Assembly (NCBI GenBank): GCA_958296055.1
Contig: CATQHS010000001.1
Coordinates: 3,010,277-3,074,276 of the forward strand
Length of the DNA: 64,000 nucleotides
DNA from: an uncultured Acidimicrobiales bacterium
GTDB lineage: Bacteria > Actinomycetota > Acidimicrobiia > Acidimicrobiales > Aldehydirespiratoraceae
Direction: 5' to 3'
The position numbers and the translations under genes are program-made. Positions 3,413 to 24,427 of the stretch are shown piece after piece. Position 1 is the first letter of the stretch, and each line of letters starts with the position of its first letter. The notes beneath the pieces are model-generated. The model was not told the DNA's origin and ran no database searches. It saw only the letters and a program-made list of their open reading frames with translations.

Positions 3413-3470
3413 AGGCTTAACTTCCTACTTGTCCGCCCAAAATAAACCTGCCCGATCTCTGCTGAGCTTT

Positions 3471-6281: not shown

Positions 6282-6292
6282 CTGCGGCCTGT

Positions 6293-9004
6293 CTACTCGA
6301 AGAGCCGGGTTTCGGGGGGGCCAGCCGACTTGACTAGCTCGGGCCAGGCCACCACCAGGCCGTTGTAGGCCAGCGCCTCCTCCGACCAGCCCTTCTTGTC
6401 GCAGGTGTCGTACAGCCGGTAGGCCAGCTCCCGAGCCGGTTCACCCAGTCCGCCGACCGAGGAGAGCAGGGCCCCGGCCGCCGCCTCGCCCTCGGTGTTG
6501 AGGGTGCGGATGAGGTGCTGGACCACCTTCCAGACGGTGATCCGGTCGTCGCTCCCGGGGGTCCAGCTTTCGTCGAGTTCGCCCCGGTTGAGCAGGCGGC
6601 ATTTGTTCCCCCGCTGTTCGAGTATCCCGGCTGAGACCAGCCCGCCGATGGAGGTGTTCTTGGCCTTGCTCAGCGTCTCGGCCACCCCGGCCGAGCCCTC
6701 GTTGAGGCCGAACTCCTCGAACCAGGCCACCGCCCAGCGGGTGTCGCTATCGAAGTCCGCCTCCTGGCTGGCCAGCACCTCGTCGAGGCACTGGTTGATG
6801 ACCGCCAGCGCAGCCCGCACCGGCATAGTCGTGCCGTCGGCCTCGATCACCTTGGAGTACCGGGAGAAGACCGCCATCCCCGGCCCGTTCGACGCCTGGG
6901 CCAGATCCACCGGCGCGATGTTGCCTTGCTGGAGTCGTCGCAGAGCCTCGGGTAATTCGGCCCGAAGAGTGGTGATGAAGTCTCCTCTCGTGGTCTGAGG
7001 AGCGTCAGCCAGACGACGGCGGCAGACGAGGACGATAGACGAAGCCAGCGCAGCGCGGCCCTTTTCGCGAAGGCCGCCCGGTTTTTCGGTCCGTATCGGC
7101 CAAGTCCCCGTGATTGTTGCTCCGGCGTTAAGAAGTCCCTGAAGCATCGTCTCCCAGCCAGTCGACACTCTGCCCACTCCATCTGCCCTGTCTTCTGCCT
7201 GCTTGAATGCATAGAAGACGGTGAATGGGTACTCATCATCTTGAATGGCGAGGATGCTCTCAAATGACTGGCGCAGACCGTCCTCAAAGAAATCTGCGGC
7301 TGCATCCCAATTGCCTTCATGTCTGGCCGGTTCAGCGATCAGTTCTTGTGCTTTTGGAACGAGAATGGTGCTGAAAAGATCAGGGTATACGTCTTTTAGG
7401 CAACGGCGGAACCACACGTAAAAGAAGTCTGATAGATCGGCATATGGAACGTTATCGTAGTAAGGTGGATCGGTGCATACCATAACCGATCCGTTGATCA
7501 TACGTGGTGCACGAGCGTCGAGCTGTGTTACTGAAGATGTGCCTTCGGCTGGTACTCTCTCTAATGCCTTTGTAAGATAATCAACCTGACCCAAAAAATT
7601 TCTTGAAGAATTAGAGAAAGGGTTAGATTCGGCATAAGTCCATATCATTGGCAAAGCATTGCGCGAGAATACTTGTTGAATCGTACTTCTTCCGGGGTCC
7701 CAAAAACACTGACTTGATCCACCATTGGCTAACCGACCAATAGCCAGGCTTAGATAAGTTATAATCGCATCTGCATAGTCTTCACTGCCTCCATCAGTTA
7801 ACACCTTATTTCTCGTCTCTTGAACTAGAGATAAAAATGTTATCATTGTTCGTAACTGCCGTGGAGTGAAGAGGTTGTCATAGGAGTCTATACCGTAGTT
7901 TGGGGCAGTGATCGCACGCGGATTGTGTGGCAGTTTCTCTGTCGGTATATTAGTTGGAACGCTTATCACCGATGCTTCTTTTTGTTCATTATCAGCTTCG
8001 ATATAATGTTTTGTATTTCCCTCAGCTATTGTGCATAATAGCTGAGATCCAAGATCACCAGCTTTTGCTGCCGCTCGTACTTTTTTGAGGGGCATAGCTG
8101 AACTGCACACGATACAGGTAGCACCGCTTCTTGTGACCGTTCCATCCATAGGGTAACCGAGTCCTCGTTGCACTTTGAACCTGACTAATCCGGTCAACTG
8201 ATCAAGGGTTGGCTCAAGCCACACTTCGTGATTCTTCTTACGTGAAAGCATGAATGAGTTGAGTAATGGTATAGTCGTGCCACATGCCGGATTCGTGCAT
8301 GTGATCGTCCGAGCCCAGATCCAAGCAATTACCGTGGCTCTCCCACCGCCTTCCTCATGTGGTATCTCAACCGTTGGATAGTTCTTTCCTACAAGTTCGC
8401 GGGCGCGTTGATCCATCCAGCGGCTATATCGGCGAACGTCCTCGGCGAGCCCGGATGCCCTAGGCAATTCCGTCGGATGGAGTTGTTGATCTTCTGTGGG
8501 GCCGATGGGTTGCTGTCCCGAGAACTTCGGGGGAAGTTCTGTCAGTGCCTTGTTAATCAGTACAGCGACAGGATTGAGATCGCTAGCTTCGATGTTCAGA
8601 CCAAGGAACTGGGCAGACAGCGGTATGGAACCTCCGCCTGCAAACGGATCAACGACGGTCGGTAGCTGAGAGTTAGCGCTATGCCGGATTTCGGCCCTCG
8701 TTATTTCAATCAAGTCGTAGTTCTGCGTATTCTCCCACTTGACCATGGCTTCAATAATATTGAACAGCCGTAGCCGCTCCCTTTCCTGAGACTCCTCGTC
8801 TGGGAAGTCGTTGGGATGAGACGACGGATCGTCGATGAGCGAAGCGAACAGCACTGCCCGTGCTGCCGCTAGTGGACGCCGCGCCCACCACAGGTGGAAC
8901 GTTGAAGGATGTCCCTGCCGGGTCGACTTCTCCCGCACTGCCGCCGCATTGATCGCATCCAGCGGGAGCGCCACCTCGATCAGCTTCTTGCGATGGTTCG
9001 TCAC
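6293..9004 (-). CDS. DUF1156 family DNA methylase, copy 2
   Basis: A protein of 903 residues, paralogous along its length to the next gene. It has a DUF1156 start (RKKLIEVALPLDAIN, HLWWARRPL), motif I near 121 (PFAGGGS), motif IV near 512 (TDPPYYD) and cysteine pairs between them. It should be a second DNA amino-methyltransferase of the same defence locus, either with its own specificity or as partner subunit of copy 1. Base composition is uneven inside one intact frame: the first 80 or so codons and the last 230 are GC-rich like the host, whereas roughly 7150-8700 is markedly AT-richer. This suggests recombination between alleles of different origin, or arrival followed by partial gene conversion. 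The frame is uninterrupted, so the protein is probably functional. Confidence 0.86.
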   Translation of the reverse strand: MTNHRKKLIEVALPLDAINAAAVREKSTRQGHPSTFHLWWARRPLAAARAVLFASLIDDPSSHPNDFPDEESQERERLRLFNIIEAMVKWENTQNYDLIEITRAEIRHSANSQLPTVVDPFAGGGSIPLSAQFLGLNIEASDLNPVAVLINKALTELPPKFSGQQPIGPTEDQQLHPTELPRASGLAEDVRRYSRWMDQRARELVGKNYPTVEIPHEEGGGRATVIAWIWARTITCTNPACGTTIPLLNSFMLSRKKNHEVWLEPTLDQLTGLVRFKVQRGLGYPMDGTVTRSGATCIVCSSAMPLKKVRAAAKAGDLGSQLLCTIAEGNTKHYIEADNEQKEASVISVPTNIPTEKLPHNPRAITAPNYGIDSYDNLFTPRQLRTMITFLSLVQETRNKVLTDGGSEDYADAIITYLSLAIGRLANGGSSQCFWDPGRSTIQQVFSRNALPMIWTYAESNPFSNSSRNFLGQVDYLTKALERVPAEGTSSVTQLDARAPRMINGSVMVCTDPPYYDNVPYADLSDFFYVWFRRCLKDVYPDLFSTILVPKAQELIAEPARHEGNWDAAADFFEDGLRQSFESILAIQDDEYPFTVFYAFKQAEDRADGVGRVSTGWETMLQGLLNAGATITGTWPIRTEKPGGLREKGRAALASSIVLVCRRRLADAPQTTRGDFITTLRAELPEALRRLQQGNIAPVDLAQASNGPGMAVFSRYSKVIEADGTTMPVRAALAVINQCLDEVLASQEADFDSDTRWAVAWFEEFGLNEGSAGVAETLSKAKNTSIGGLVSAGILEQRGNKCRLLNRGELDESWTPGSDDRITVWKVVQHLIRTLNTEGEAAAGALLSSVGGLGEPARELAYRLYDTCDKKGWSEEALAYNGLVVAWPELVKSAGPPETRLFE

Positions 9005-9415
9005 TCGGCTCCTCAGCCCGCCTCACTCGTTGAGGACGCCGGGAGCGTACAGCAGCCCGCCCCTCAGCGATGTCGGGGCCTTCAGAACAAACAGCGGCTT
9101 GAGCCCCGAGTGGCCGCCGTCTGTCCGGCAGGCTCCGACGGGACTCGGCCGAGCTTGGCGCAGATCCGTGCTGCGGCCCCCCACGGGTGAAGCTCCCGGC
9201 TGCTCGCAGTGCTGGCAGACCGCCCCCGCGGCTGGCTGGCTCGCAACCGCAGCGTCGCCCCCTGCCGTCGGGAGCCGTCCCCTGGTGCCCGACTCGGAAC
9301 TGGTCGCAGGAGGTTGCTGGTAGTTGTTCTGGGCATAGAGGTTGGTAGCAGCGTGATGGGGTGAGCCCCCTGTGCGAGTGTGGTGGTGTAACAACCCACG
9401 AGCACAGGAGGCTCA
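9005..9415. other. GC-rich gap between methylase and transposase
   Basis: About 410 bases with no supportable gene. Short frames exist on both strands, but none has a recognisable domain. The last 45 bases, just before the transposase start, hold an imperfect inverted repeat (TGTGCGAGTG at 9370-9379 against CCACGAGCACA at 9397-9407). It ends in TGT/ACA, as expected near an IS481-type terminus, and is followed by an AGGAGG ribosome-binding site. The remainder may be decayed coding sequence or the promoter region for the minus-strand methylase operon. Confidence 0.4.
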
Positions 9416-9967
9416 ATGTCGCACGCTAATGCACGTTTGACTCACGCGGGGCGGCTGCTGCTGGTCCAGCGGGTGGCCGCGGGGGAGCCCCAGGCCGAAG
9501 TGGCCCGCCAGATGAAGCTGTCGCGGGGCACGGTCGCGAAGTGGTGGCGGCGCTGGCTCGAGTGCGGCGATTGCGGGCTGGCGGACCGCAGCTCGCGGCC
9601 GCGCCGGTCTCCTCGGCGCACCGACGCTAAGACCGAGGAGCGGATCTGCCGGCTGCGGCGCAGCACGAAGCGGGGCCCGGTGTACTTGTCGGCGCGCACG
9701 GGGGTGGCGGCATCGACGGTGTGGCGGGTCCTTCGCCGCCACGGGCTGAACCGGCTGGACCGCATCGATCGCCCGACCGGGCGGGTCATCCGCCGCTATG
9801 AGAGATCGGCGCCGGGGGAGCTGGTGCACCTAGACATCAAGAAAGTCGCGAAAATCCCCCCGAGCGGGGGCTGGAGAGCGCAGGCCGCTAAAGCCCCCAG
9901 GCCCGTCCTCTACAACCGAGCTTCCGATCCGAAACCGGCAACATCGCCACTGGGTCACTCCGGTTGA
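9416..9967 (+). pseudogene. Truncated IS481-family transposase
   Basis: The first 150 or so residues match the start of IS481-family transposases: an N-terminal helix-turn-helix (HARLT-type start, then RLLLVQRVAAGEPQAEVARQ and SRGTVAKWWRRW), the linker with SSRPRRSP, and the beginning of the DDE domain (PGELVHLDIKKVAKIP). The first catalytic Asp of the DDE triad is visible in HLD. After GGWR the homology stops and about 40 unrelated residues run to the stop codon. Two thirds of the transposase, including the remaining catalytic acids, is missing. A strong AGGAGG lies 6 bases before the ATG. The remnant sits inside the defence locus and marks a past insertion and deletion between methylase and helicase genes. 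It cannot transpose by itself. Confidence 0.85.
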
Positions 9968-10010
9968 GTTGTCCCCTTGCTCCCATAACCGTCAGGTTAG
10001 AGTCCAAGCG

Positions 10011-11312
10011 TCAATCCCAATTGAGACTTTGTTCACCGGCGGTTGAGTTCTTCCACTCGGAACCCTCGTGGGGTAAGCCACTAGGAGGATCAGGCCCATC
10101 ATAGTACCAAAGTGAAGGAGGAGGCCCGTCTGCGCCGATGGCAAATACCCATCCAGTGATTGTACGACGCCATATGAACCATGCATCGGCTTTGTCAGAT
10201 AATACTTCGTGGAAATTGTCGTTTGGAAACGGCTCGGTTGGTGGTCCAACTGTTATTAATCCAGCGACATAGTGTTCATTGTGTCTCCACCACCCTATAT
10301 GACATGTATGCAACCAGTCTAATATTTTGCAGGTCTTGCTGAACTCACGACGATCAAGTTGTCGTCCTTGTTCGTCGACGCCGGCTACACCTGTGTATCG
10401 TTCTAATCGCTCAGCTAATTCCCGTTGATTCACTTCTTCACGGCGAGCTTTCTCAAGTTCAGATCGGATATTTCTTCGCACTTCGTTAGGTTGATCCGAC
10501 GAAAGAATGCGATGCAGCATAATTGGCCTCGGTATAAAGCGTAATGATGTAAGATGAAGGCCAGATTCCTGTATCACTGTCAGTAACAAGGACAGTCGCT
10601 TTCTAAGACGCCGAATATATGGCCCAGTAGATGTCAGATTCTTGATCCTTTTGTACAGTAGTTCCCATCTGGAATATATGGTCAAACAATATAAGATGGG
10701 ACAGAACATTATGGTCAAATAGATAGGCAAAATAGTGCCTCTAGCCAACTCTGTGCCCGGTATACTTACTCGGCCACTAGCCCAACTCCAGATATTGAAG
10801 ATTATCAGAAGGACTCCTATGATCAGAGCAATATACTTTGCGCAGCTTCCCATAGGGCGGATGTTCGATTTTTTATTGTCAGAAAGAGTTATTATTACTA
10901 CAAGGATGAAACTAATTGGTACTAGCAAGAGTTCAAAGAGTAGGGGCATTTCTGCCAACGCAATTAGTATTTCAACAACAACTGTCACAGATAAAAGATT
11001 CCGTAATCTACGAGTAAAGAATCTCATATCACTCGTAGAAGTTGCTGCATCATAAAATAGTACAGGTCCAGATGCCAGACTCCACCATACGGTTACAATC
11101 ATCAGATCAACGCCCCAAAGCCTGATTCGGGAAGCAAAATATATTATTATAATAAACCAGCCAAAGGCAATCCAAGTTGAGAGTTTCCGTAGTATTACGG
11201 TAAATGCTTTTAGTATACCACAGATAGATACTCGGGTTTTAGGAGCAAGAAGCAGTAATGATACTACTATGGATAACCAAATTAATTGAGCAAGGACTCG
11301 ATTGTCAGTCAT
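10011..11312 (-). CDS. Multi-pass membrane protein with soluble C-terminus, unknown function
   Basis: A protein of 433 residues not recognised as a known family. About six hydrophobic segments lie in the first half (roughly 6-21, 44-61, 69-86, 107-140, 157-173 and 190-208). A charged, probably cytoplasmic half follows (220-433) with a coiled-coil-like stretch near 280-310 and a Trp-rich end. The gene is much AT-richer than its surroundings and uses codons ending in A/T, so it was probably acquired horizontally. It has the same orientation as the methylases and ATPase and sits between helicase and methylases. Membrane proteins are common as abortive effectors in defence islands; an effector role is inference only. 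It could equally be independent cargo that came with the IS481 element. Confidence 0.7.
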   Translation of the reverse strand: MTDNRVLAQLIWLSIVVSLLLLAPKTRVSICGILKAFTVILRKLSTWIAFGWFIIIIYFASRIRLWGVDLMIVTVWWSLASGPVLFYDAATSTSDMRFFTRRLRNLLSVTVVVEILIALAEMPLLFELLLVPISFILVVIITLSDNKKSNIRPMGSCAKYIALIIGVLLIIFNIWSWASGRVSIPGTELARGTILPIYLTIMFCPILYCLTIYSRWELLYKRIKNLTSTGPYIRRLRKRLSLLLTVIQESGLHLTSLRFIPRPIMLHRILSSDQPNEVRRNIRSELEKARREEVNQRELAERLERYTGVAGVDEQGRQLDRREFSKTCKILDWLHTCHIGWWRHNEHYVAGLITVGPPTEPFPNDNFHEVLSDKADAWFIWRRTITGWVFAIGADGPPPSLWYYDGPDPPSGLPHEGSEWKNSTAGEQSLNWD

Positions 11313-11641
11313 TATCCAACCATAGAATCATTTTAATCTAACAGCAAGGGTTTGCACCCCTGCTCCTGTCGCTCGTCGCCAGATCCGGCGGACCAATAGT
11401 AGCCGTCGGTGCTGTGATCGATGACGTGCGGAATCTGTCTCAGCTTCTAGCCAAGTCGGAGAGACCGGGCTGCGACCCGTTGGGCATTCGATGCGCAACC
11501 CGTTTGCCCGGGGGCGTAGGGGCGACCGTTGACCGCTGGCCGCTGTCCATTGCGGCGGCTTGGAGTACCCGTAATCGGAGCCCCCCGGTGGCTGTCACAC
11601 CCCCTTCGTACTTTGGGCCGTGACTCGCAGGAGGTTGACCG
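11313..11641. other. Intergenic stretch before the SLH protein gene
   Basis: About 330 bases between divergently transcribed genes. The first 40 are AT-rich, like the membrane-protein gene; the rest is GC-rich. I see no gene, repeat array or RNA structure that I can defend. The end carries a good ribosome-binding site (CAGGAGG) about 8 bases before the ATG at 11642. Confidence 0.5.
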
Positions 11642-12316
11642 ATGAACAAAATCCGCACGCTCGCCGCTGGGCTCGTGGCGGTAGCGGCCGTCTTCGCCGT
11701 CGGGGCTGCGGCGACCGCGGCCGTCGTTGTATTTTCGGACACGAGCGGCCACGAACACGAGGCTGAGATCAGGCTCGCTCACTCGAAGGGCCTGTTCGCT
11801 GGCTATGAGGACGGCACTTTCCGGCCTGATCGGACGCTCACCAACAAGCAGTCAGAGGTCGTGCTTCGCCGACTGCTCGACAACTACACCAACGATGACG
11901 GCAACTCCACCCTCACCAGGGCGGAGGCCGCGGTGGTGCTGACCCGCGGCGTCTGCGGGCTCGACGGCGATTGCGGCAGCCCGCCGCCGCCTCCCACTTC
12001 GGCGCCTGAGACCCCGCAAGGGCGCCCGCCGGTCCCTCAGGACACGGGGGTGTGGGAAAGGTTCGAGACTAAGTACGAATGGGATGACACCCCGATAGTC
12101 GGGTACACGCTGGCCAGCACCTCCGGCCCGTATTCTTGGGATGTTGCCTATGTGATGCTCAGGTGTTTCGGAGACGACCCCGACATAAGCCTCACCACCA
12201 CTGAACTCATCTTCGCTGACGGTCAGATCCCGGTCAGGTACCGTGCCGGTTCCGCCACCGCTGTATCCGCCACTTGGGACGTCTGGGAAACCGACGCGCT
12301 CAGCGGCTGGATGTGA
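11642..12316 (+). CDS. Exported SLH-domain protein
   Basis: A protein of 224 residues. It opens with a positively charged tip and a hydrophobic stretch (about 5-30), a signal peptide or anchor. S-layer-homology-type repeats follow (AHSKGLFAGYEDGTF, then LTRAEAAVVLTRGVCG near 85-105). A Pro-rich linker (PPPPPTSAPETP) leads to a beta-rich C-terminal part without recognisable motif. SLH domains attach proteins to the cell wall, so this is predicted to be a surface protein. It begins after a clean CAGGAGG site. It points away from the membrane-protein gene and towards the AbiEii-like pair, but shares no obvious function with the defence genes and is probably passenger cargo. Confidence 0.7.
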   Translation: MNKIRTLAAGLVAVAAVFAVGAAATAAVVVFSDTSGHEHEAEIRLAHSKGLFAGYEDGTFRPDRTLTNKQSEVVLRRLLDNYTNDDGNSTLTRAEAAVVLTRGVCGLDGDCGSPPPPPTSAPETPQGRPPVPQDTGVWERFETKYEWDDTPIVGYTLASTSGPYSWDVAYVMLRCFGDDPDISLTTTELIFADGQIPVRYRAGSATAVSATWDVWETDALSGWM

Positions 12317-12373
12317 GCCTGCCAGCGGGGGGCCGACGCCGTGAAGTCGTTCGCTGGCTCTAGAGTTGGGACC

Positions 12374-12688
12374 ATGGACCGCAGGCCGCTGCTGCTCAGG
12401 CCGGTGTCGATACCCGACGACATGGAAGACCGGTCGTTGCCCAAGGCCAGCGGCAAGGTGAGACTGCCGCACCATATCGCCTGGAGCTTCCCCTTCGAGC
12501 ACGACTTGGACGATCCCAAGCAGCTACGCCACGCCTATCAGCGGATCATGACCGAGGGCCTCGACGACGATGTGCTCTACTACATCGACTTGGACATCCT
12601 CCTCGGCCTCTGGGACGAGCTGTGGCTGTCACCCCATGTGCGCGAGGCCTGGAGCGACTGGTTGCGCAGCCGGGGCCTGATCCCCTAG
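12374..12688 (+). CDS. Small protein preceding the AbiEii-like gene, possible antitoxin
   Basis: A protein of 104 residues from the ATG at 12374; an upstream GTG at 12341 would add 11 unconvincing residues. It is acidic and helix-rich with no named domain; conserved-looking features are HHIAWSFPF and the C-terminal WSDWLRSRG. The stop codon is 4 bases before the TTG start of the nucleotidyltransferase-like gene, so the two are co-translated. In AbiE-type systems a small antitoxin gene precedes the AbiEii nucleotidyltransferase toxin; this order and spacing fit, but the protein is not a recognisable AbiEi transcription factor. The antitoxin role is therefore a guess from context. Confidence 0.55.
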   Translation: MDRRPLLLRPVSIPDDMEDRSLPKASGKVRLPHHIAWSFPFEHDLDDPKQLRHAYQRIMTEGLDDDVLYYIDLDILLGLWDELWLSPHVREAWSDWLRSRGLIP

Positions 12689-12692
12689 CAGC

Positions 12693-13328
12693 TTGGCACT
12701 CACCGGTCTGCAGCGCCGAGTGCGCAGCATCGTGGCGAGGCTCCCGGAGACGGGCACCACGGTGGCCCTCGCCGGCGGCGCGGCGCTCATCGTCACCGGG
12801 ATCGTCCAACGGCCCACCGAAGACCTCGACTTCTTCGCTCCCCACCCCCAGCCGATAGTCCCAGTGCTGGATGCCTTAGAGGCTGAACTGCTGGCTGAAG
12901 GGCTCCGGGTCACCCGCCTTCACTCGACCGAGACCTTCGCCAGGCTTCAGATCGAATCCGATTCCGAGACGACTCGCATCGACCTCGCCACCGACTACCG
13001 GCTCATGCCGGCGATGCAGACCGCGGAAGGTGCCGTGTTGGCTGAGCGCGAACTCGCCGCCGATAAAACGCTGGCTCTCTTCGGTCGCGCCGAACCTCGC
13101 GACTATCTCGACTTTCAATCGCTCGCCGCCCGTTTCAGCCTCGACGACCTCTGCGATCTGGCCGCCTCCAAAGACGCCGGATTCCATCGCAAATACCTTG
13201 CTGAGGCCCTTGAGTCCATAGATAAGTTCAACCGCGTCGTCTTTGACATCGACGACGACGCCTACCGTGATCTTTGCGACTTCGCTCACGCCGCCGCCCG
13301 CGAACTCATCGACCATGGACATGAATAA
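12693..13328 (+). CDS. AbiEii/AbiGii-like nucleotidyltransferase
   Basis: A protein of 211 residues. The N-terminal part has the motif of AbiEii-type and DUF6036-like nucleotidyltransferases (ALAGGAALIVTGIVQRP, then EDLDFF near 50), giving the GG and DxD elements of the nucleotidyltransferase fold. A later strand with RIDLATDY could supply the third acidic residue. Such proteins act as toxins in type IV systems by nucleotidylating tRNA or other targets. The gene starts at TTG and follows the upstream small gene after 4 bases. The pair runs opposite to the surrounding helicase/methylase genes, so it forms an independent cassette. A simple housekeeping nucleotidyltransferase is less likely given the island context. 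Confidence 0.7.
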   Translation: MALTGLQRRVRSIVARLPETGTTVALAGGAALIVTGIVQRPTEDLDFFAPHPQPIVPVLDALEAELLAEGLRVTRLHSTETFARLQIESDSETTRIDLATDYRLMPAMQTAEGAVLAERELAADKTLALFGRAEPRDYLDFQSLAARFSLDDLCDLAASKDAGFHRKYLAEALESIDKFNRVVFDIDDDAYRDLCDFAHAAARELIDHGHE

Positions 13329-13329
13329 G

Positions 13330-13617
13330 TTATCTTCGCCGTTTGCGGGTTGAGCCGGATCTTTCTAGTTTGATAACGGATTCTTCTAATTTGACAACAC
13401 GAGCGAGCAGGCTGCTTATGTCTATATGCATTTGTAACAGTCGTTCCTGAACCTTTGTTATCTGAATATCGTTGGCATAGGTTTCTTTACGCAGATTATC
13501 GATTTTGCTATTGGTCCCTTTGTTCAATAGAATCATTGTGAGGATGATTCCTACCGTAGTCAAGCATACAGTGATTAATATAGGCAGAGAAGGCCCCACG
13601 AACTCCATTTTGTCCAA
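13330..13617 (-). CDS. Small membrane-anchored coiled-coil protein
   Basis: A protein of 95 residues with one hydrophobic segment near the N-terminus (about 10-30) and then a long heptad-rich helix (about 35-85), ending in a basic tail (RKRRR). The gene is AT-richer than its neighbours. It starts about 20 bases after the helicase stop codon in the same direction and ends 2 bases from the convergent AbiEii-like stop codon. Its position suggests co-transcription with the helicase. A single-span anchor with a coiled coil could tether or sense a complex at the membrane, but no family is recognised and it could be a chance survivor of a larger cargo gene. Confidence 0.55.
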   Translation of the reverse strand: MDKMEFVGPSLPILITVCLTTVGIILTMILLNKGTNSKIDNLRKETYANDIQITKVQERLLQMHIDISSLLARVVKLEESVIKLERSGSTRKRRR

Positions 13618-13638
13618 GATAGCATAGTCGCTCGCTGG

Positions 13639-16600
13639 TCAGCGGGGCTTGGTGGCCAGGTTCCAGTACTTGGCCCAGTCGAGGCGGCGGTCGTGCTCGC
13701 CGATGCCGGGCTCGGGGGCGCGGCCGGTGAAGGGGTCGTGCAGGTAGCGCACCGTCGCTGCGTCGTCGTCGCCGATCTCCACTAGGGCCAGCACGTGGCG
13801 GTCGGCGTTGTTGAGCCCGTAGAGGATCTCCGACGCGGTCACCGTGAAGTCGTCGGCCCCGGCCATCCGGCCCTTCACCTCGATGAACATCAGCCGGCCG
13901 TCGGCGGTGCGGGTCTCGAGGTCGTAGCCCTTGTTGTTGCGGGCCAGCTCGGTGGGCGACCGGCCCAGGGCCCGCTCGGCCGCCATCACCGCGGCCACGG
14001 CCAGCCTCTCGGTGCGGACCGTGTCGGCGGCCCGGCTCGGCGGCGCCGCCGCACCCGTGAGCTCGGCCACCAGCCCGGCCGGGACCACCAGCGCTCCGCC
14101 CACCACCCGGGGCTGGCGGGCGGACAGCTTGCGCTGCCGGGCCAGCTCGGACCGCCGCCGCTCCAGCCGCTGCTGGGCCTCTTCGGCCCGCCGGGCCGCC
14201 CGGGCCGAGTTGAGCCGGGCGTTGCCGCGGCCCGCCAGCTCCTCTCCCTTCAGCTTGAGGGTTTGAGCATCCCAGTAGCTGGTCTCCTCGGTGAGGCGCT
14301 GCTCCACCGCGGCCAGAGTGCGGTCCACCAGGTCGTGGACCCGGGCCTGCACCTCGGCCAGGTGCCCGGGCACGTTGTGCTCGCTGGCGTGGCGGACCGC
14401 CGTCTCCTCCAGGCTGGTGCGTATCCACTCGGCCGAGGCCGCCGCCCCCAGCGCGGCCAGCTCATCGGGGTCGGGGATCTTGTAGTCCACGTAGGGGTGG
14501 TGGCCGGCGTCGGACACCTCGCCGCCCTCGGCGATCTCCACGTACTCGAAGCGCTTCGACACCACCCGGCGCGCCCCGCTGGGCGCGGTGGTGCCGTCGA
14601 CGATCTCGTGCTCCATGAGCACCAGCACCCGGGGCGCGGCGCCCCAGTCCTCGGGGTCGATGAGGACGGCGCCCTGCTGGAGGAGCGAGCCGTGGCGGCG
14701 CAGGAAGGTGCCGATGACGGCCTCCAGCAGCGGATGGCCGGGACCGACCAGATCGGCGGCGGGCCGGCCGGGCACGTTGATCAGCTCCCGCTCGAAGCAG
14801 ATCCGCTCGTAGCCGACCAGCAGCCGGCCTCGGGCCGAGGAGGCGTCCCAGTCCCGCAGCGCCGCGGGCACGTGGCCGACCTGGTAGCGCTTGGCCTCCC
14901 GGCGGGCCACCCGGCCGCCGAGGCGGCCGAAGGCGTCGAGGAAGAAGCGCCGCACGAAGCTGGGCTGCACCTTGCGGGCCCGGGCCCGCTCCATCTGGTC
15001 CCTTATCTCCTGGACCGAGGCCGGGGCCAGCACGTCCGACAGCAGGGACTGGGCGTCGATCAGCTCCTTCATGCGGTCGCCGACCGTGAGGTCGATCACC
15101 GCGCTCATGCGCAACTGGTGCATCTCGGGGTTCTCGGCGGTGATGGCGTCGATCAGCAGGTCGCGCAGCGACCGGTCCGAGAAAGCCTCGCCCAGCACGT
15201 CGAAGACCTTGCCGCCCAGGGCCTGCCGCTGCTCCTCCAGCTTCTCCAGCAGCCGCTCGAACACCCGGCCCTCCCGGGTCTCCTCGGCCACCAGGTTCCA
15301 CAGCCGGCACACCTCGGTCTGGCCGATGCGGTGGATGCGCCCGAACCGCTGCTCGATCCGGTTGGGGTTCCACGGCAGGTCGTAGTTCACCATCAGATGG
15401 GCCCGCTGGAGGTTGAGGCCCTCGCCGGCCGCGTCGGTGGCCACCAGCACGGTCACCTCCGCGTCCTGCATGAACCGGTCCTGGACCCGGCGGCGGTCTT
15501 CCCGGCGGACGCCGCCGTGGATGGACACCACCGCGCCCGCCCGGCCCAGCAGCCGCCCCAGCCTGCCCACCAGGTACTCGAGCGTGTCCCGGTGCTCGGT
15601 GAACACGATCAGCTTCTGGAGGCGGCCGTGCTCGTCGAGCATCTCGGGCGTGTCCTGCAGGAGGCGGGCCAGCTCCTCCCACTTGCGGTCCACCCCCGAG
15701 TTGCGGACGCTGCGGGCCAGGGTTTCGAGCTGGCCGAGTTCGGCGATCTCGGTTTGGAGTTCGGCGACGGTGCGGGCCGCGGTGGCCTCGTCAGCCACTT
15801 CTTCCTCCAGCTCCTCGGCCTCGCTGCCGAGCAGCTCGTCGGGGTCGAAGTCCTCGAAGTCCGACAGCCGGTAGCCGCTCGGGGCCCGGGCCAGGTCGAA
15901 GGCGGCGGGCCGGAGGCGCTCGGCCTCTTCGAGCCTCTCGGCCAGCCGGGCCCGGCGCCGCTCCAGCGACCGCAGGATGGCCAGCGGCGACGACGCCAGG
16001 CGGCGCTGCAGGATGGTGAGGGCGAAGCCCACCACCGCCGAGCGCCGCCCGTCGCCCTCGGCCCTCAGCCGCTCGGCTCGGTTCATGCCCTCGCGCACAT
16101 AGGCGGTGACCCGCTCGTACAGGTCGGCCTCGGCTTCGCTGAGGGGGTACTTGGCGGTAGTGGCCGTCCGCTCGGGGAACAGGCGGGTGCCGTCGAAGCG
16201 CAGCAGGTCCTCCTTGACCATCCGGCGCATCAGGTCTTTGGGCCGCTCGCCGCGATGGGTGCCCTTGCGGTATTTGCCGGCGAAGCGGTCGCCGTCGAGC
16301 AGGGCCATGAACAACTGGAAGTCCTCGGGCTTGCCGTTGTGAGGGGTGGCGGTCATCAACAGAAAGTGGCGGGCCACTTCTTCGAGGCGGCGGCCGAGCC
16401 GGTAGCGCTTTGTCTCCTTCACTTCGGTGCCGTAGTGGGTGGCCGACATCTTGTGGGCCTCGTCCACCACCACCAGATCCCACTCGGTGCGGCTAAGCCG
16501 GGCCGAGAGGTCGTCGTCTCGGGCCAGCATGTCGAGCCGGGCGATCAGCCGGGGCCGCTCGGCCAGCGGGTTCCCGGTGCGGGACGCCTCCACCATGTCC

Positions 16601-17154
16601 CGGGTGAGCAGATCGAACTCGAGGCCGAACTTCTCGCCCAGCTCGTCCTGCCATTGCTCCACTAGGCCGCCGGGGGCCACCACCAGGCACCGGTCGAGGT
16701 CGCCCCGCACCTGCAGCTCCTTGACGAGCAGGCCCGCCATGATGGTCTTGCCCGCGCCGGGGTCGTCGGCCAGCAGGAACCGCAGCGGCCGGCGGGGCAG
16801 CATCTCGGTGTAGACGGCCTCGATCTGGTGGGGGAGGGGGTCGATGTCGCTGGTCTCGGCGGCCAGGTAGGGGTCGAACAGGTAGGCCAGCCGGATGCGC
16901 ATGGCCTCGGCGGCCAGCACGAACAGGGCCGGGTCGGCGTCGAGCGACCAGGCCCGCCCGCCCTCGGCGATCTCCAGCCCGTCCTCGCCGGACCGGTAGA
17001 GGAGTTCCCGGTCCACGTTCCCGCTCTCGTCCTCGTAGGTGAGGTTGACCGCCCCCGACCCGACCCACTCAGCGTCGATCACCGTCACCAGCCCCGACGG
17101 CGCGACCCCCCGCACCCTCGCCCCCTTCGCAAGCTCCTCCAGCCTCGCCGCCAT
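13639..17154 (-). CDS. SNF2-type helicase with DUF3883-like C-terminus (Hma-type defence component)
   Basis: A protein of 1171 residues. Helicase motif I lies near 130 (DDPGAGKTIMAG), motif II DEAH near 230, motif III MTATPHNG near 270, and motifs V/VI near 570-615 (ATDAAGEGLNLQ, QRFGRIHRIGQ). These define an SF2/SNF2-like ATPase that moves along DNA. A long charged coiled-coil region separates the two lobes (about 360-470). The C-terminus (about 1070-1165) matches DUF3883, a nuclease-fold-like domain (NKGYDLETRTADGRLMFIEV, then KGR). Helicases with this tail occur with DUF1156 methylases and DUF499 ATPases in anti-phage loci. Here all three are on the same strand but are separated by about 4.6 kb of unrelated cargo. 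Confidence 0.88.
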   Translation of the reverse strand: MAARLEELAKGARVRGVAPSGLVTVIDAEWVGSGAVNLTYEDESGNVDRELLYRSGEDGLEIAEGGRAWSLDADPALFVLAAEAMRIRLAYLFDPYLAAETSDIDPLPHQIEAVYTEMLPRRPLRFLLADDPGAGKTIMAGLLVKELQVRGDLDRCLVVAPGGLVEQWQDELGEKFGLEFDLLTRDMVEASRTGNPLAERPRLIARLDMLARDDDLSARLSRTEWDLVVVDEAHKMSATHYGTEVKETKRYRLGRRLEEVARHFLLMTATPHNGKPEDFQLFMALLDGDRFAGKYRKGTHRGERPKDLMRRMVKEDLLRFDGTRLFPERTATTAKYPLSEAEADLYERVTAYVREGMNRAERLRAEGDGRRSAVVGFALTILQRRLASSPLAILRSLERRRARLAERLEEAERLRPAAFDLARAPSGYRLSDFEDFDPDELLGSEAEELEEEVADEATAARTVAELQTEIAELGQLETLARSVRNSGVDRKWEELARLLQDTPEMLDEHGRLQKLIVFTEHRDTLEYLVGRLGRLLGRAGAVVSIHGGVRREDRRRVQDRFMQDAEVTVLVATDAAGEGLNLQRAHLMVNYDLPWNPNRIEQRFGRIHRIGQTEVCRLWNLVAEETREGRVFERLLEKLEEQRQALGGKVFDVLGEAFSDRSLRDLLIDAITAENPEMHQLRMSAVIDLTVGDRMKELIDAQSLLSDVLAPASVQEIRDQMERARARKVQPSFVRRFFLDAFGRLGGRVARREAKRYQVGHVPAALRDWDASSARGRLLVGYERICFERELINVPGRPAADLVGPGHPLLEAVIGTFLRRHGSLLQQGAVLIDPEDWGAAPRVLVLMEHEIVDGTTAPSGARRVVSKRFEYVEIAEGGEVSDAGHHPYVDYKIPDPDELAALGAAASAEWIRTSLEETAVRHASEHNVPGHLAEVQARVHDLVDRTLAAVEQRLTEETSYWDAQTLKLKGEELAGRGNARLNSARAARRAEEAQQRLERRRSELARQRKLSARQPRVVGGALVVPAGLVAELTGAAAPPSRAADTVRTERLAVAAVMAAERALGRSPTELARNNKGYDLETRTADGRLMFIEVKGRMAGADDFTVTASEILYGLNNADRHVLALVEIGDDDAATVRYLHDPFTGRAPEPGIGEHDRRLDWAKYWNLATKPR

Positions 17155-17238: not shown

Positions 17239-17268
17239 TTGCGTTGTGTCCTCTCATGTCATTATGCT
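17239..17268 (+). promoter_or_regulatory. Candidate sigma-70-type promoter for the GHKL-nuclease gene
   Basis: TTGCGT (17239-17244) and TATGCT (17263-17268) are separated by 18 bases. They would place the transcription start about 22 bases before the ATG at 17298. The region is the divergent gap between the helicase and GHKL genes. No good ribosome-binding site precedes this ATG. The match is visual only. Confidence 0.35.
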
Positions 17269-17297
17269 TCGGCCGTGCTCTTCAAGCCCGCTCAGCC

Positions 17298-19250
17298 ATG
17301 ACCTGGGTACCGGTCGAAGTCCAAGAGGACCACATACAGGGTCTTCTCAAAGGCGAGCCCATCGCGGGGATCATCCAGCTCGTCTGGAACTCTATCGACG
17401 CCGAGGCGCGTGAAATCAACGTCGTTGTGGTCGAAAACGGTTTGGGTGCCGTCGAAGAGATCAGGGTCGAAGACGACGGCCACGGGATGACTCATGAGGA
17501 AGCTACAGAGTACTTCGCCCTTCTCGGAGGTTCGTGGAAGCGTCGTGCCGAAAAATCTAAGAACGACCTTCGTATTCTTCACGGCCAAGAGGGGAAGGGC
17601 CGGTGGAAGGCTTTCACGTTGGGCTCCAAAGTTGTGTGGACCACCGTAGCTGAACACTCAGGAACACGTCAATTAACCGAGATAACTGGCCACCGTGGTC
17701 AACCTAAGGGCTTTGAGGTATCCGATCCTGTAGATTGCGAGAAACCTATTGGTACTATAGCACAGGTAATTGCTGATCAGCCTGGGCCGAGAGGGCTTCT
17801 AGGCGAGAAGTCATCTAAGAGTCTAACCGCAACCTTTGCTCTATATCTAAATATGTACCCTGAGTTAGAGATCAAATACCGAGGATCGTCACTTGATCCG
17901 ACACCCTTGCAGCAGTATAGCGCTGATTATACTATCAATATGGGTAATAATAAGTATGGTGATGCCACTCTAACGATCATTGAGTGGTCAGATCAAGTGC
18001 GCGTCCAAAGAGGATTGTATCTCTGTGATGCTAACGGGATAACTTTAGCTGACCTTAAGCCAGGTATACAGGCTAGCGGGTATGAGTTCACTGCGTATGT
18101 GCGTTGGGATGGATTCAGAGACATGGAAGATCGTCTCATGTTAGCAGAAAATGATCAAGAGTTATCGCATCTAATAACCGTTGTTCGGAATCAGATGCGT
18201 GACCACTTCAAACAGCGACGTGAGCAGCACATTCTTAATATAGTAGAGGAGTGGAAGCAGGATCAGGTCTATCCTTATGCTGATGAACCCCAGAGTGATC
18301 GGGAGCATGCAGTTAGAGATTTGTTTGATGTAGTTGCGGTCAAGGCAGCTTCGGCAGTTAATTCTTCTGAAGATCAAGTAGCAAAGCGGTTATCTCTTAG
18401 ACTACTGAAAGAGGCTCTTGAGACCAGTCCAACTTCTTTACGACGGGTTCTGACTGAAGTGTTACAACTGAGTAAAGAGAGTCTTTATGAACTCAATAAG
18501 TTGTTGGATCGTACTACGTTTACAAATATAATTGAAGCCTCGTCTCTTATATCTAAGAGACTGGATTTTCTTCTAGGTTTGCGGCAATTGGTTTTTGATC
18601 CGATGTCTGTACAATATCTCAAAGAAAGATCCCAGCTTCACCGCATTCTAACTACTGAGACCTGGGTGTTCGGTGAGGAGTTTGCGGTTACAGTTGATGA
18701 TCAGAATCTTACAAATGCACTCAAGGCACATATTAAAATGCTTGGCAGAGAAGAGCTTGCCAGCTTAGAACCAGTTTTGGACGAGCAAGGTAAGGATCGG
18801 ATACTAGATTTGTTATTGGCTCGTTCCTCACCTCAAGATAGAGATCGCCACGAACACCTTGTAGTAGAACTAAAAGCTCCTAATGTCACAATTGGAGCAG
18901 ATGAGATAACACAGATCAAAAGGTATGCATATGCAGTAGCTAAGGATAGCCGATTCAATATGACTGATGTTAAGTGGGATTTCATAGTAGTGTCCTCTGA
19001 TTTAGATGATTTTGCGCGCCAAGAAATTAGTACTGAACTAGCTAGGCATAACCCTGGTCTGCTACAAGCATCTGATGGTGGGGAATTCAGGATATGGATT
19101 AAGACTTGGGCGCAGATAATAGATACAGCCGAGCATAGGCATAAATTTGTAAAGAATGCGCTCAAGTATACACCGAGTTCGGATGATGCTCTCGCATACC
19201 TCCGTGAGGTCCACAATAAGTATCTGCCTGACAGCCTGGCTGCTCCATAG
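17298..19250 (+). CDS. GHKL ATPase fused to PD-(D/E)XK-like nuclease domain
   Basis: A protein of 650 residues from ATG 17298. Residues 1-200 form a Hsp90/MutL/MORC-type GHKL ATPase: N-box LVWNSIDAEA near 30, G1 box VEDDGHGM near 60, G2 box GQEGKGRWKAF near 100. The catalytic glutamate expected at the start of the N-box (as in MutL ELVENSLDA) is Gln here. Near 500-530 a DLLL strand followed by LVVELKAP looks like the D...ExK core of Shedu/DUF4263-like nucleases. ATP binding may therefore gate DNA cleavage. It is divergent from the helicase of the Hma-type locus. The first 130 codons are GC-rich and the rest AT-rich, suggesting a foreign or recombinant gene. It is not MutL: there is no MutL C-terminal domain and no mutS nearby. 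Confidence 0.75.
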   Translation: MTWVPVEVQEDHIQGLLKGEPIAGIIQLVWNSIDAEAREINVVVVENGLGAVEEIRVEDDGHGMTHEEATEYFALLGGSWKRRAEKSKNDLRILHGQEGKGRWKAFTLGSKVVWTTVAEHSGTRQLTEITGHRGQPKGFEVSDPVDCEKPIGTIAQVIADQPGPRGLLGEKSSKSLTATFALYLNMYPELEIKYRGSSLDPTPLQQYSADYTINMGNNKYGDATLTIIEWSDQVRVQRGLYLCDANGITLADLKPGIQASGYEFTAYVRWDGFRDMEDRLMLAENDQELSHLITVVRNQMRDHFKQRREQHILNIVEEWKQDQVYPYADEPQSDREHAVRDLFDVVAVKAASAVNSSEDQVAKRLSLRLLKEALETSPTSLRRVLTEVLQLSKESLYELNKLLDRTTFTNIIEASSLISKRLDFLLGLRQLVFDPMSVQYLKERSQLHRILTTETWVFGEEFAVTVDDQNLTNALKAHIKMLGREELASLEPVLDEQGKDRILDLLLARSSPQDRDRHEHLVVELKAPNVTIGADEITQIKRYAYAVAKDSRFNMTDVKWDFIVVSSDLDDFARQEISTELARHNPGLLQASDGGEFRIWIKTWAQIIDTAEHRHKFVKNALKYTPSSDDALAYLREVHNKYLPDSLAAP

Positions 19251-21171: not shown

Positions 21172-22197
21172 ATGGTCGTGGCGGTCGCCGAGCGGGCCCC
21201 GTCGATTCGGGATGCCGAGCGGGTGGCGGCTGCGTTGGCTGCTGCGGGGGTGTGTGAGGTGTGGCTGCACGGGTCGGTGGCCCGGGGCGTGGCCGGCCCG
21301 GGCAGCGACATTGACTTGGTTGCCGTGTACCCCGATCTCGACTATCGCCGGCGTTGGAAGCGCAAGGGCGAGCTGTCGGAGTTGGCCGGGCGGTTTTGTC
21401 CTTGGGATGTGGATGTTTTTGTCACTGATTTGCCCGAGTGGACGATCCGTTCGGGGCTTGTAACTTCTTTTGAGCGAGGGGTTCGAGCCCTCGGCGAACT
21501 GCTGCTTCCCCGACCCGACGCCGTGATCGGCGTGCGATGGGGGAAGGAGATCGGCTTGCCGGGCAGCGACGACCAAGAAGCCCTCTACACGATGGACTTG
21601 GCGAACCAGGCGCTCCACAACCTGGATGTGGCTCTGACCTGGCTGGTGACGCAGCGAACCCGTGAGGACTACCAATTGCGCCGTCAGATTTATCTGATGT
21701 GCCGCGAGTCCCAGATGGCGGCGGAGGGGGCGTTGAAAGCCTTGGTGCATCTGTATGGGCACCGCCCGCCCCCTGACACCCACAGTCTCGGAGAGCTTTG
21801 CGCCGGTTTGCCCCGTGACATCGCCGCTGGTGCGGGCCGGATACTGGAGGGGATCGACAGGGCCGAGATGAGCCGCTGGCGGCTGGTCGGCACCTACCCA
21901 GCCGACTACCCGGAGGAAGCCGCGAGGGCACCCGAGCTGGCCGAGCCCTACTTGTGCGCCGCGGTCGGGTTGAACGGCTACGTCGTCGATCACGTCGAGG
22001 CCCGGACCGGCCCGGACCCAGTGCTGCACGAAAACCGGGAGCACACTGCCAAGATCGCGGCCTGGCTCGACGACCGCGAACCGGCCAGCGGCCGGGCTCG
22101 GACTGGCCCTTCGCCGTTGATCTCGATCAGCGGCCTCGCCCCGCCCCGGCCCCGCCAGCCCCCGCTGCCCGGTCTCGGCCCGTCCCGGCCCCGCTGA
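21172..22197 (+). CDS. Fused nucleotidyltransferase-HEPN protein, tandem copy 1
   Basis: A protein of 341 residues. The N-terminal half is a minimal nucleotidyltransferase (HGSVARG near 38, GSDIDLVAVYP near 48, third acid in [10 protein letters not shown]), with all catalytic residues present. The C-terminal half (about 140-280) is helical and HEPN-like, with [20 protein letters not shown] and HRPPPDTHSL; the latter satisfies Rx4-6H. In two-gene MNT/HEPN modules the nucleotidyltransferase silences the HEPN RNase by AMPylation; here both are in one chain. The last 35 residues are Pro/Arg-rich low complexity. It is the first of three tandem paralogues, differing mainly in a central segment encoded at about 21592-21700. 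A housekeeping KNTase-like role cannot be excluded. Confidence 0.75.
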   Translation: MVVAVAERAPSIRDAERVAAALAAAGVCEVWLHGSVARGVAGPGSDIDLVAVYPDLDYRRRWKRKGELSELAGRFCPWDVDVFVTDLPEWTIRSGLVTSFERGVRALGELLLPRPDAVIGVRWGKEIGLPGSDDQEALYTMDLANQALHNLDVALTWLVTQRTREDYQLRRQIYLMCRESQMAAEGALKALVHLYGHRPPPDTHSLGELCAGLPRDIAAGAGRILEGIDRAEMSRWRLVGTYPADYPEEAARAPELAEPYLCAAVGLNGYVVDHVEARTGPDPVLHENREHTAKIAAWLDDREPASGRARTGPSPLISISGLAPPRPRQPPLPGLGPSRPR

Positions 22198-22213
22198 CGC
22201 CTTTAGGGGTGGG

Positions 22214-23245
22214 ATGACGGTCGCAACGGTTGCAACTCCGTCAGTCCCCTCGGTTCGGGATGCTGAGCGGGTGGCGGCCGCGTTGGTCGCTGCGGGGGTG
22301 TGTGAGGTGTGGCTGCACGGGTCGGTGGCCCGGGGCGCGGCTGGCCCGGGCAGCGACATTGACTTGGTTGCCGTGTACCCCGATCTCGACTATCGCCGGC
22401 GTTGGAAGCGCAAGGGCGAGCTGTCGGAGTTGGCCGGGCGGTTTTGTCCTTGGGATGTGGATGTTTTTGTCACCGATTTGCCTGAGTGGACGATCCGTTC
22501 GGGGCTTATAACTTCTTTTGAGCGAGGGGTTCGAGCCCTCGGCGAACTGCTGCTTCCCCGACCCGACGCCGTGATCGGCGTGCGATGGGGGAAGGAGATC
22601 GGCTTGCCGGGCAGCGACGACCAGGAAGCCCTCTACACGATGAAACTGGCCAATGGGGCGCTCAGCAATATCGATACGGCCCTAGATTGGCTGGTGGCGA
22701 ATCGAACCCGTCAGGACTTCCGGCGGGAACTCCAGATTTATCAGGTGTGCCGCGAGTCCCAGATGGCGGCGGAGGGGGCGTTGAAAGCTCTGGTGCATCT
22801 GTATGGGCACCGCCCGCCCCCCGACACCCACAGCCTCGGAGAGCTTTGCGCCGGTTTGCCCCGTGACATCGCCGCTGGCGCGGGCCGGATACTGGAGGGG
22901 ATCGACAGGGCCGAGATGAGCCGTTGGCGGCTGGTCGGCACCTACCCGGCCGACTACCCGGAGGAGGCCGCGAGGGCGCCCGAGCTGGCCGAGCCCTACG
23001 CCTGCGCCGCGGTCGGGTTGAACAGCTACGCCGTCAGCCATGTCGAGGCCCGGACCGGCCCGGACTCGTTGCTGGACCAAAACCGGGAACTCACCGCCGA
23101 GGTGGCGGCTCGGCTTGACGAGCACGAACCGGTCAGCGGCCGGGCTCGGACCGGCCCTTCGCCGTTGATCTCGATCACCGGTCTCGGCCCGCCCCGGCCC
23201 CGCCAGCCCCCGCTGCCCGGTCTCGGCCCGTCCCGGCCCCGCTGA
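22214..23245 (+). CDS. Fused nucleotidyltransferase-HEPN protein, tandem copy 2
   Basis: A protein of 343 residues, nearly identical to copy 1 at DNA level over the nucleotidyltransferase half (GSVARG, SDIDL) and the HEPN-like half, including the RPPPDTH motif and the Pro/Arg-rich tail. The divergent part is the roughly 40 residues between EALYTM and [10 protein letters not shown] (encoded about 22636-22745). It follows copy 1 after 16 bases, so the genes form one transcription unit. Such close similarity points to recent duplication or gene conversion. The start at 22214 is an ATG; the extra N-terminal residues before DAERVAAAL differ from copy 1, so the upstream part is not part of the homogenised block. 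Confidence 0.75.
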   Translation: MTVATVATPSVPSVRDAERVAAALVAAGVCEVWLHGSVARGAAGPGSDIDLVAVYPDLDYRRRWKRKGELSELAGRFCPWDVDVFVTDLPEWTIRSGLITSFERGVRALGELLLPRPDAVIGVRWGKEIGLPGSDDQEALYTMKLANGALSNIDTALDWLVANRTRQDFRRELQIYQVCRESQMAAEGALKALVHLYGHRPPPDTHSLGELCAGLPRDIAAGAGRILEGIDRAEMSRWRLVGTYPADYPEEAARAPELAEPYACAAVGLNSYAVSHVEARTGPDSLLDQNRELTAEVAARLDEHEPVSGRARTGPSPLISITGLGPPRPRQPPLPGLGPSRPR

Positions 23246-23329
23246 CGCCGCGCTCCGCGGCCCGTTCCAGCCCGCCGCCTCGCTGACGCCGCCCCACGGC
23301 CCGTCCCAGCCCGGCTAGGTTTAAGCGCC

Positions 23330-24427
23330 ATGACAGTGGATGTCGATGCATCACCGGTTCCTTTGAGGCGGGATGCTGAGCGAGTGGCGGCCGCATTGGC
23401 CACCGCGGGGGTGTGCGAGGTGTGGCTGTACGGGTCGGTGGCCCGCGGTGAGGCCAGCCCCGACAGCGACATCGACCTGGTCGCCATATACCCCGATCTC
23501 GACTACCGCCGACGCTGGGACCGCAAACGCGAATTGGCCGACCTGGCCCAGCCGTTGGGCCCTTGGGAGGCGGACGTATTCGTCACCGACCTGCCCGAGT
23601 GGACGATCCGATCCGCCCTGTTGACCTCCTTCGAGCGAGGGATACGCACCCTCGGCGAGCAGTTGCTTCCCCGACCCGACGCCGTGACCGGCGTGCGATG
23701 GGGGAAGGAGATCGGTTTGCCGAACAGCGAAGACCAGGAAGCCCTCTACACAATGAGGCAAACGAACCTGGCGCTCTACAGCCTCGGGGAGGCGCTGGCA
23801 TCGCGAGCGGTGAAGCGAATCCGCGAGGACGAGTGGTGGTTCCGGATGTATCAGGTGTGCCGCGAGTCCCAGATGGCGGCGGAGGGGGCGCTGAAAGCCC
23901 TGGTGCACCTGTATGGGCACCGCCCGCCCTCCGATACCCACAGTCTCGGAGAGCTTTGCGCCGGTCTGCCCCGTGACATCGCCGCTGGCGCGGGCCGGAT
24001 ACTGGAAGCGGTGGACAGGGCCGAGATGAGCCGCTGGCGGCTGGTCGGCACCTACCCGTATGAGTACCCGGCGGAAGCGGTGAAAGGACCGGAGCTGGCC
24101 GAGTTGTACGCGTGCGCCGCGGTCGGCCTCAACGGCTACGCCGTCGACCACGTCGAGGTTCGGGTCGGCCCGAAGCCGGTGCTGGACCGCAACCGGGAGC
24201 TTGTCGCCGAGGTGGCGGCCTGGCTCGACGAGCACGAGGTCGCCAGCGGCCGGGCTCGGACCGGGCCTTCGCCGTTGATCTCGATCACCGGCCTCGCCTC
24301 GCCCCGACCCCGCCAGCCCCCGTTGCCCGGTCTCGGCCCGCCCCGGCCCCCACTGACGCCGCGCTCCGCGGCCCGTCCCACCCCGGCTGACGCCATCCCG
24401 CGGCCCGTCCGACCCCGGCCCCGCTGA
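23330..24427 (+). CDS. Fused nucleotidyltransferase-HEPN protein, tandem copy 3
   Basis: A protein of 365 residues and the most diverged of the three, but with the same order: GSVARG and [10 protein letters not shown] in the nucleotidyltransferase half, [20 protein letters not shown] and RPPSDTH in the HEPN-like half. The segment between EALYTM and CRES (about 23752-23862) is again replaced by unrelated sequence with several Trp and Arg. The C-terminal tail is longer (Pro/Arg-rich, ending PRPVRPRPR) because repetitive GC-rich DNA is translated before the stop codon. A gap of 84 bases with related low-complexity sequence separates it from copy 2. The cellular target is unknown. Confidence 0.73.

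Follow-up and report, generated by a model that had tools for sequence, protein, structure and literature searches.

Three adjacent genes in the genome of an uncultured Acidimicrobiales bacterium (Aldehydirespiratoraceae), each encoding an MNT-type nucleotidyltransferase (NT) fused to a HEPN-like domain, were found to be a mosaic in which flanks have been homogenised or a segment exchanged between copies. The trio appears to consist of tandem members of a dispersed, mostly solo two-domain nucleotidyltransferase family. We favour, with a probability of roughly 0.5, the reading that these are solo NMP-transferases and that the homogenised copies differ in the face that binds the acceptor or partner.

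A tandem array near an Hma defence system

We analyzed a window of 64,000 nt (positions 3,010,277-3,074,276, forward strand, of contig CATQHS010000001.1 in assembly GCA_958296055.1). The three open reading frames matched Pfam NTP_transf_2 (PF01909, E ~1e-9) and HEPN (PF05168, E 9e-6 to 4e-4), with the HEPN score of copy 3 (21.1) just under the cut-off of 22. This agrees with an earlier reading made from the sequence alone (the sequence-only reading), which had called three tandem nucleotidyltransferase-HEPN fusions with these ends. In the ORF map, genes 1 and 2 are separated by 16 nt, an operon-like spacing, and genes 2 and 3 by 84 nt. The C-terminal tail was considered as a genome-wide shared cassette end and rejected, since the rest of the genome held no confident copy of it outside the array.

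Between the trio and the Hma system lie proS and a GHKL ATPase gene. The latter (HATPase_c_3, window positions 17244-19250, between the Hma helicase gene and proS) has a low GC3 of 0.43 and no PADLOC match. Within the Hma region (86-17154), the GC3 of one HmaB gene (0.60) is far lower than that of the other (0.92), and an AbiEii-like nucleotidyltransferase gene is located at 12693-13328.

Table 1 Features of the array and of the neighbouring Hma system, in window positions.
Feature	Position	Strand	Basis
HmaC of Hma system	86-3412		PADLOC
HmaB of Hma system, two genes	3471-6281; 6293-9004		PADLOC
HmaA helicase of Hma system	13639..17154	-	PADLOC; context only
Copy 1, MNT-type nucleotidyltransferase + HEPN-like domain, 341 aa	21172..22197	+	ORF; Pfam PF01909 + PF05168; AF2 pLDDT 91.5
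Copy 1 variable segment, aa 141-176	21592..21699	+	codon alignment; AF2 helices
Copy 1 second variable zone, aa 261-301, last two HEPN helices	21952..22074	+	alignment; helix-face analysis
GC-rich ~39-nt repeats encoding disordered copy 1 C-terminal tail	22130..22204	+	repeat families D3-D5; pLDDT < 50
Copy 2, MNT-type nucleotidyltransferase + HEPN-like domain, 343 aa	22214..23245	+	ORF; Pfam
Copy 2 variable segment	22640..22747	+	codon alignment
Copy 2 second variable zone	23000..23122	+	alignment; helix-face analysis
Copy 3, 365 aa, longer low-complexity tail	23330..24427	+	ORF; Pfam
Copy 3 variable segment, one codon shorter	23753..23857	+	codon alignment
Copy 3 second variable zone	24110..24232	+	alignment
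Further stretches of GC-rich ~39-nt repeats (D3-D5)	23178-23313; 24288-24419	+	

Mosaic structure of the three copies

Copies 1 and 2 had been described as near-identical on both sides of a segment of about 40 residues, and this proved correct: the flanks around the segment are ~97% identical, and 35 of the 54 nucleotide differences in aligned codons 16-260 fall in codons 141-177. Far from being evenly spread, these 35 occupy a single 114-nt window from column 144 (permutation p 1e-4). The segment coordinates first proposed were roughly right, except that copy 2 had been placed about 4 nt early. Direct repeats D1 and D2, 300-nt blocks lying one on each side of the segment, are 95-96% identical between copies 1 and 2 and 78-88% identical between copy 3 and either of them. 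The segment is not the only variable zone, as had been claimed; residues 1-15 (pN 0.32) and 261-301 (pN 0.14-0.19) are also diverged.

We then compared copies 1 and 2 in windows of 20 codons. The NT flank has pS 0-0.13 and pN 0-0.02, the variable segment pS/pN of 0.54/0.25 and 0.21/0.28, and the HEPN flank pS 0.13-0.20 with pN 0. In the segment pS rises along with pN, and the ratio stays below 1 (segment dN/dS 0.66-0.82). Sites in the segment are star-like, with mixed support for grouping 1+2, 1+3, 2+3 or none, and the three copies are equally far apart there. Upstream flank sites almost all group copies 1 and 2 (longest run 32, p 2e-4; scan p 1e-4). Copy 3 is near the other two only in the HEPN core past the segment (pS 0.16-0.20, columns 181-240) and is not close in the NT half (pS about 0.45-0.5; 0.23-0.77 in columns 21-120). 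Since segment pS is raised as well and the three copies are equidistant, the pattern is that of a mosaic and not of positive selection alone; pure positive selection was rejected as the whole explanation, with segment omega below 1. Judging from these alignments, the simplest account would be gene conversion, or recent duplication of the unit plus segment exchange, leaving older sequence in the middle of the gene.

The same zones diverge in other arrays

Tandem pairs in two other, unrelated genera (genomes G284 and G317) repeat the pattern, with the NT half homogenised and the segment and last helices diverged. In G284, pS/pN is 0.05/0.012 in the NT half versus 0.34/0.17 in the segment, and in G317 0.22/0.06 versus 0.42/0.39. 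Across five tandem pairs of the three arrays, segment omega ranges from 0.42 to 0.91; every value is below 1, and the bootstrap ranges are wide. In nine further pairs, all of one clade, it is 0.09-0.38. The pairs overlap in sequences and are hence non-independent. The closest cross-genome pair (G183/G247), which is the sole close one and is not syntenic, has a segment omega of 0.09 at dS 0.31. The sequence-only reading had proposed diversified specificity with homogenised catalytic parts. Homogenisation of the flanks held up and recurs in the two other arrays; dN/dS in the segment lies below 1.

The genes of this cross-genome pair (L079 and L053) are 89% identical in DNA over about 1.16 kb, which comprises the gene and roughly 100-140 bp per side. 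The edges of the shared block are sharp and its surroundings unrelated, as if the gene had moved alone.

A direct repeat in G284, CTTACTCCGCATATCTAC, encloses the two family genes and an unrelated two-gene unit and lies right past the stop codons (positions 2076, 3143, 4467 and 5532 of locus L128, G284:C57:48500-57000, and 1727 and 3093 of L129). The repeat has six copies in this genome, and the reversed-pattern control had zero. Short inverted arms, different in each copy, lie alongside it, and unlike genes have a C-terminal tail in common (GPGLSFDL-like). The repeat resembles the boundary of a gene cassette or a 3' hairpin.

Predicted fold and placement of the variable zones

An AF2 model built from a 49-sequence alignment of the family reached pLDDT 91.5 and pTM 0.86. 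Its HEPN helices span residues 133-160, 166-195, 253-279 and 283-301, with shorter helices between. With VIA-align, the top PDB match was the HEPN protein 1ufb (Z 12.3, 123 residues, 2.7 A), and the alignment to ANT(4') spanned both domains (Z 10.5, 220 residues, 10% identity). Foldseek alone found nothing below E 0.001 in the PDB. Helical bundles often give middling Z values, so the HEPN call leans on the sequence match too. In the model, the C-terminal half has the HEPN fold, as the 1ufb match and the sequence-only reading both have it, and the N-terminal domain has the MNT fold.

In the model, the variable segment begins at residue 141 within HEPN helix 1, most of which it covers, and runs through the loop into the start of helix 2. 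Within each of two helices the changes cluster on a single face: helix 1 (copies 1/2, p 0.03; G284, p 4e-4; G317, p 0.007) and the last helix (copies 1/2, p 0.001; G284, p < 2e-4), in the latter at similar angles. High variability on one helix face is expected for any exposed surface, and the helix 1 face changed in copies 1 and 2 is also the most variable one family-wide (160 versus 164 degrees). In HEPN-MNT complexes already described, the MNT docks through its helix 4 on helices 1 and 6 (the last) of HEPN, and the HEPN dimer interface includes helix 1 (PMC11586414). In ANT(4'), residues of the C-terminal domain contact the drug (PMC6361787).

A neutral account, which we consider a serious though not the likelier possibility, holds that the segment is an exposed, fast-changing stretch at whose edges conversion halts, so that the flanks homogenise and the segment drifts with no selection on specificity. 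It fits the segment omega below 1 with raised pS, the entropies of the segment columns, which are among the highest in the family, and the position of the changes on a generally variable helix 1 face. However, the segment and the last helices are the conspicuous zones in each of three separate arrays, and the closest cross-genome copies conserve the segment strongly; conservation in this sole close pair weakens the account.

The varied helices may instead be a dimer interface, whose divergence would block mixed dimers of paralogs while acceptor specificity stays the same. Such insulation of homo-oligomers overlaps our preferred reading, of which it names one version, and taken by itself it seems doubtful. 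The HEPN dimer interface of L. pneumophila consists mostly of helices 1 and 2 (PMC11586414), ANT(4') dimerises, with an active site that its subunits share (PMC4631478), and the source genome contains 14 full copies among which mixed dimers could form; but the dispersed copies, at a mutual identity of only about 30-36%, need no insulation from each other.

Conserved residues of the two domains

The motif of MntA is GSX10DXD and that of HepT is RX4HXY (PMC7641770). GSX10DXD is intact in copies 1-3, and its GS...DxD positions are kept in 45-46 of 49 members. D86 and W90 are invariant (n=49) and E185, H204, W236 and Y242 nearly so; the third carboxylate, D81, is Asp in just 30 of 49. In the HEPN half, the His is kept in 46 of 49 members and the Arg (position 198) in 8. 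Copies 1-3 each carry R-x5-H, lack a Tyr two residues past the His and did not match RX4HXY. The earlier statement that all catalytic residues and an RPPxDTH motif are retained is accurate for GSX10DXD and R-x5-H in all three copies, but RPPxDTH as a whole is not a conserved catalytic motif; family members share just the His. Nor is the toxin-type HEPN active site that it implied a family feature. As the His is kept and the Arg is not, the HEPN half is more likely, on these residues, to be a substrate- or partner-binding domain than an RNase toxin. For HEPN domains fused after nucleotidyltransferases, it has been noted that the RNase motif is usually lost, and a substrate-binding role was proposed (PMC3710099).

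In genome G012, four family genes (L020, L029, L032 and L034), of which three stand in tandem, no longer carry GSX10DXD but keep the rest and are candidate pseudo-enzymes.

These residues also bear on whether each protein could be a fused type VII toxin-antitoxin, a HEPN RNase silenced by AMP from its own NT half, which we regard as improbable. MNT and HEPN are the two type VII partners, fusions of them have been noted (PMC2701414), and R-x5-H is present in copies 1-3. Against this stand the scarcity of the Arg and the lack of RX4HXY and of the acceptor Tyr, the scores of copies 1-3 with the NCBIfam MntA model (31.6-35.9 bits, cut-off 60), and the four G012 copies, which keep the rest of the protein without the NT motif.

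Distribution of the family

In the source genome (3.3 Mb), 15 matches were found, the full-length genes being joined by one truncated copy. We searched genomes from genera other than that of the source organism. Among 61 relatives, 13 matched, mostly with 1-4 copies each; among 395 genomes of the class, 68 matched, many over the short NT core only, and rescored genomes had up to about five full copies each. A scan of genome contigs with copy 1 gave one weak planctomycete match. In a maximum-likelihood tree, the neighbours of the trio are genes of G317 and G410 (88/91), and seven other source-genome copies form one group (100/97), which points to several sources plus local expansion.

The other source-genome copies are mostly single genes among host genes, with GC3 of 0.46-0.89, below that of most neighbours. 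Some are near GmrSD-like, N6-methylase, AbiLii-like/AAA_21 or PLD genes. Family genes at three loci (L018, L029 and L047) are near tRNA-Leu or tRNA-Thr genes, possible integration sites. A plasmid or phage origin was rejected, as tblastn against plasmid and phage collections gave no family match.

That the copies are adenylyltransferases modifying antibiotics or other small molecules, with a different pocket in each, is very unlikely: the fold does resemble ANT(4') across both domains, but curated ANT models gave about 11-15 bits against cut-offs of 193-505, the plasmid and phage collections held no match, and chromosomal copies beside defence genes do not suggest antibiotics.

A possible panel of acceptor-binding surfaces

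In the reading that we prefer, that of solo NMP-transferases, the HEPN-like domain would hold an acceptor to which the enzyme transfers the NMP of an NTP, as in ANT(4') and MntA/HepT. The binding face, whether for acceptor, partner or dimer, may be made up of helix 1 together with the last helices. The catalytic body would be kept alike by gene conversion or by exchange of segments, and each copy would retain a different face. More tentatively, this undescribed multi-copy family might serve as a chromosomal specificity panel, in which conversion evens the catalytic body while swaps or diversification affect helix 1, the loop and the last helices, so that each copy might act on its own phage or cellular target. 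A defence or stress-response role is a guess based on context, namely the neighbouring Hma system and other defence genes close to some of the copies.

Few mobile gene pairs are as common in prokaryotes as HEPN-MNT modules. With up to 14 full copies in one genome and copy-specific acceptor-domain surfaces, a solo fused branch provides a natural set of segment swaps for finding out how the target of these nucleotidyltransferases is determined. The findings point to an unexplored, possibly defence-linked family.

Comparison with known systems

The family resembles the HepT-MntA type VII toxin-antitoxin in combining an MNT nucleotidyltransferase carrying GSX10DXD with a HEPN-fold partner. However, HepT-MntA consists of two adjacent genes, a HEPN toxin and an MNT antitoxin, whereas here one fused ORF has the NT first, most genes are solo and expanded in one genome, RX4HXY and the acceptor Tyr are lacking, and most members lack the Arg. 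Because RX4HXY, a defining motif, was looked for and is absent, the name toxin-antitoxin is not earned. ANT(4')/KNTase likewise has an NT domain followed by a helical acceptor-binding domain, with similarity across both, but the C-terminal half here fits HEPN proteins better (Z 12.3 versus 10.5) and there are many paralogs. HalB of the Hailong anti-phage system also joins a nucleotidyltransferase to a helical C-terminal part, with weak sequence and fold similarity (Z 7.4), although copies 1-3 score 20.6-32.2 bits, far under the HalB cut-off of 190. The solo PF05168 HEPN protein TT1696 of T. thermophilus (1ufb) shares the HEPN fold over model residues 134-275; unlike it, the domain described here is fused to a nucleotidyltransferase, and its helix 1 has diverged between tandem copies.
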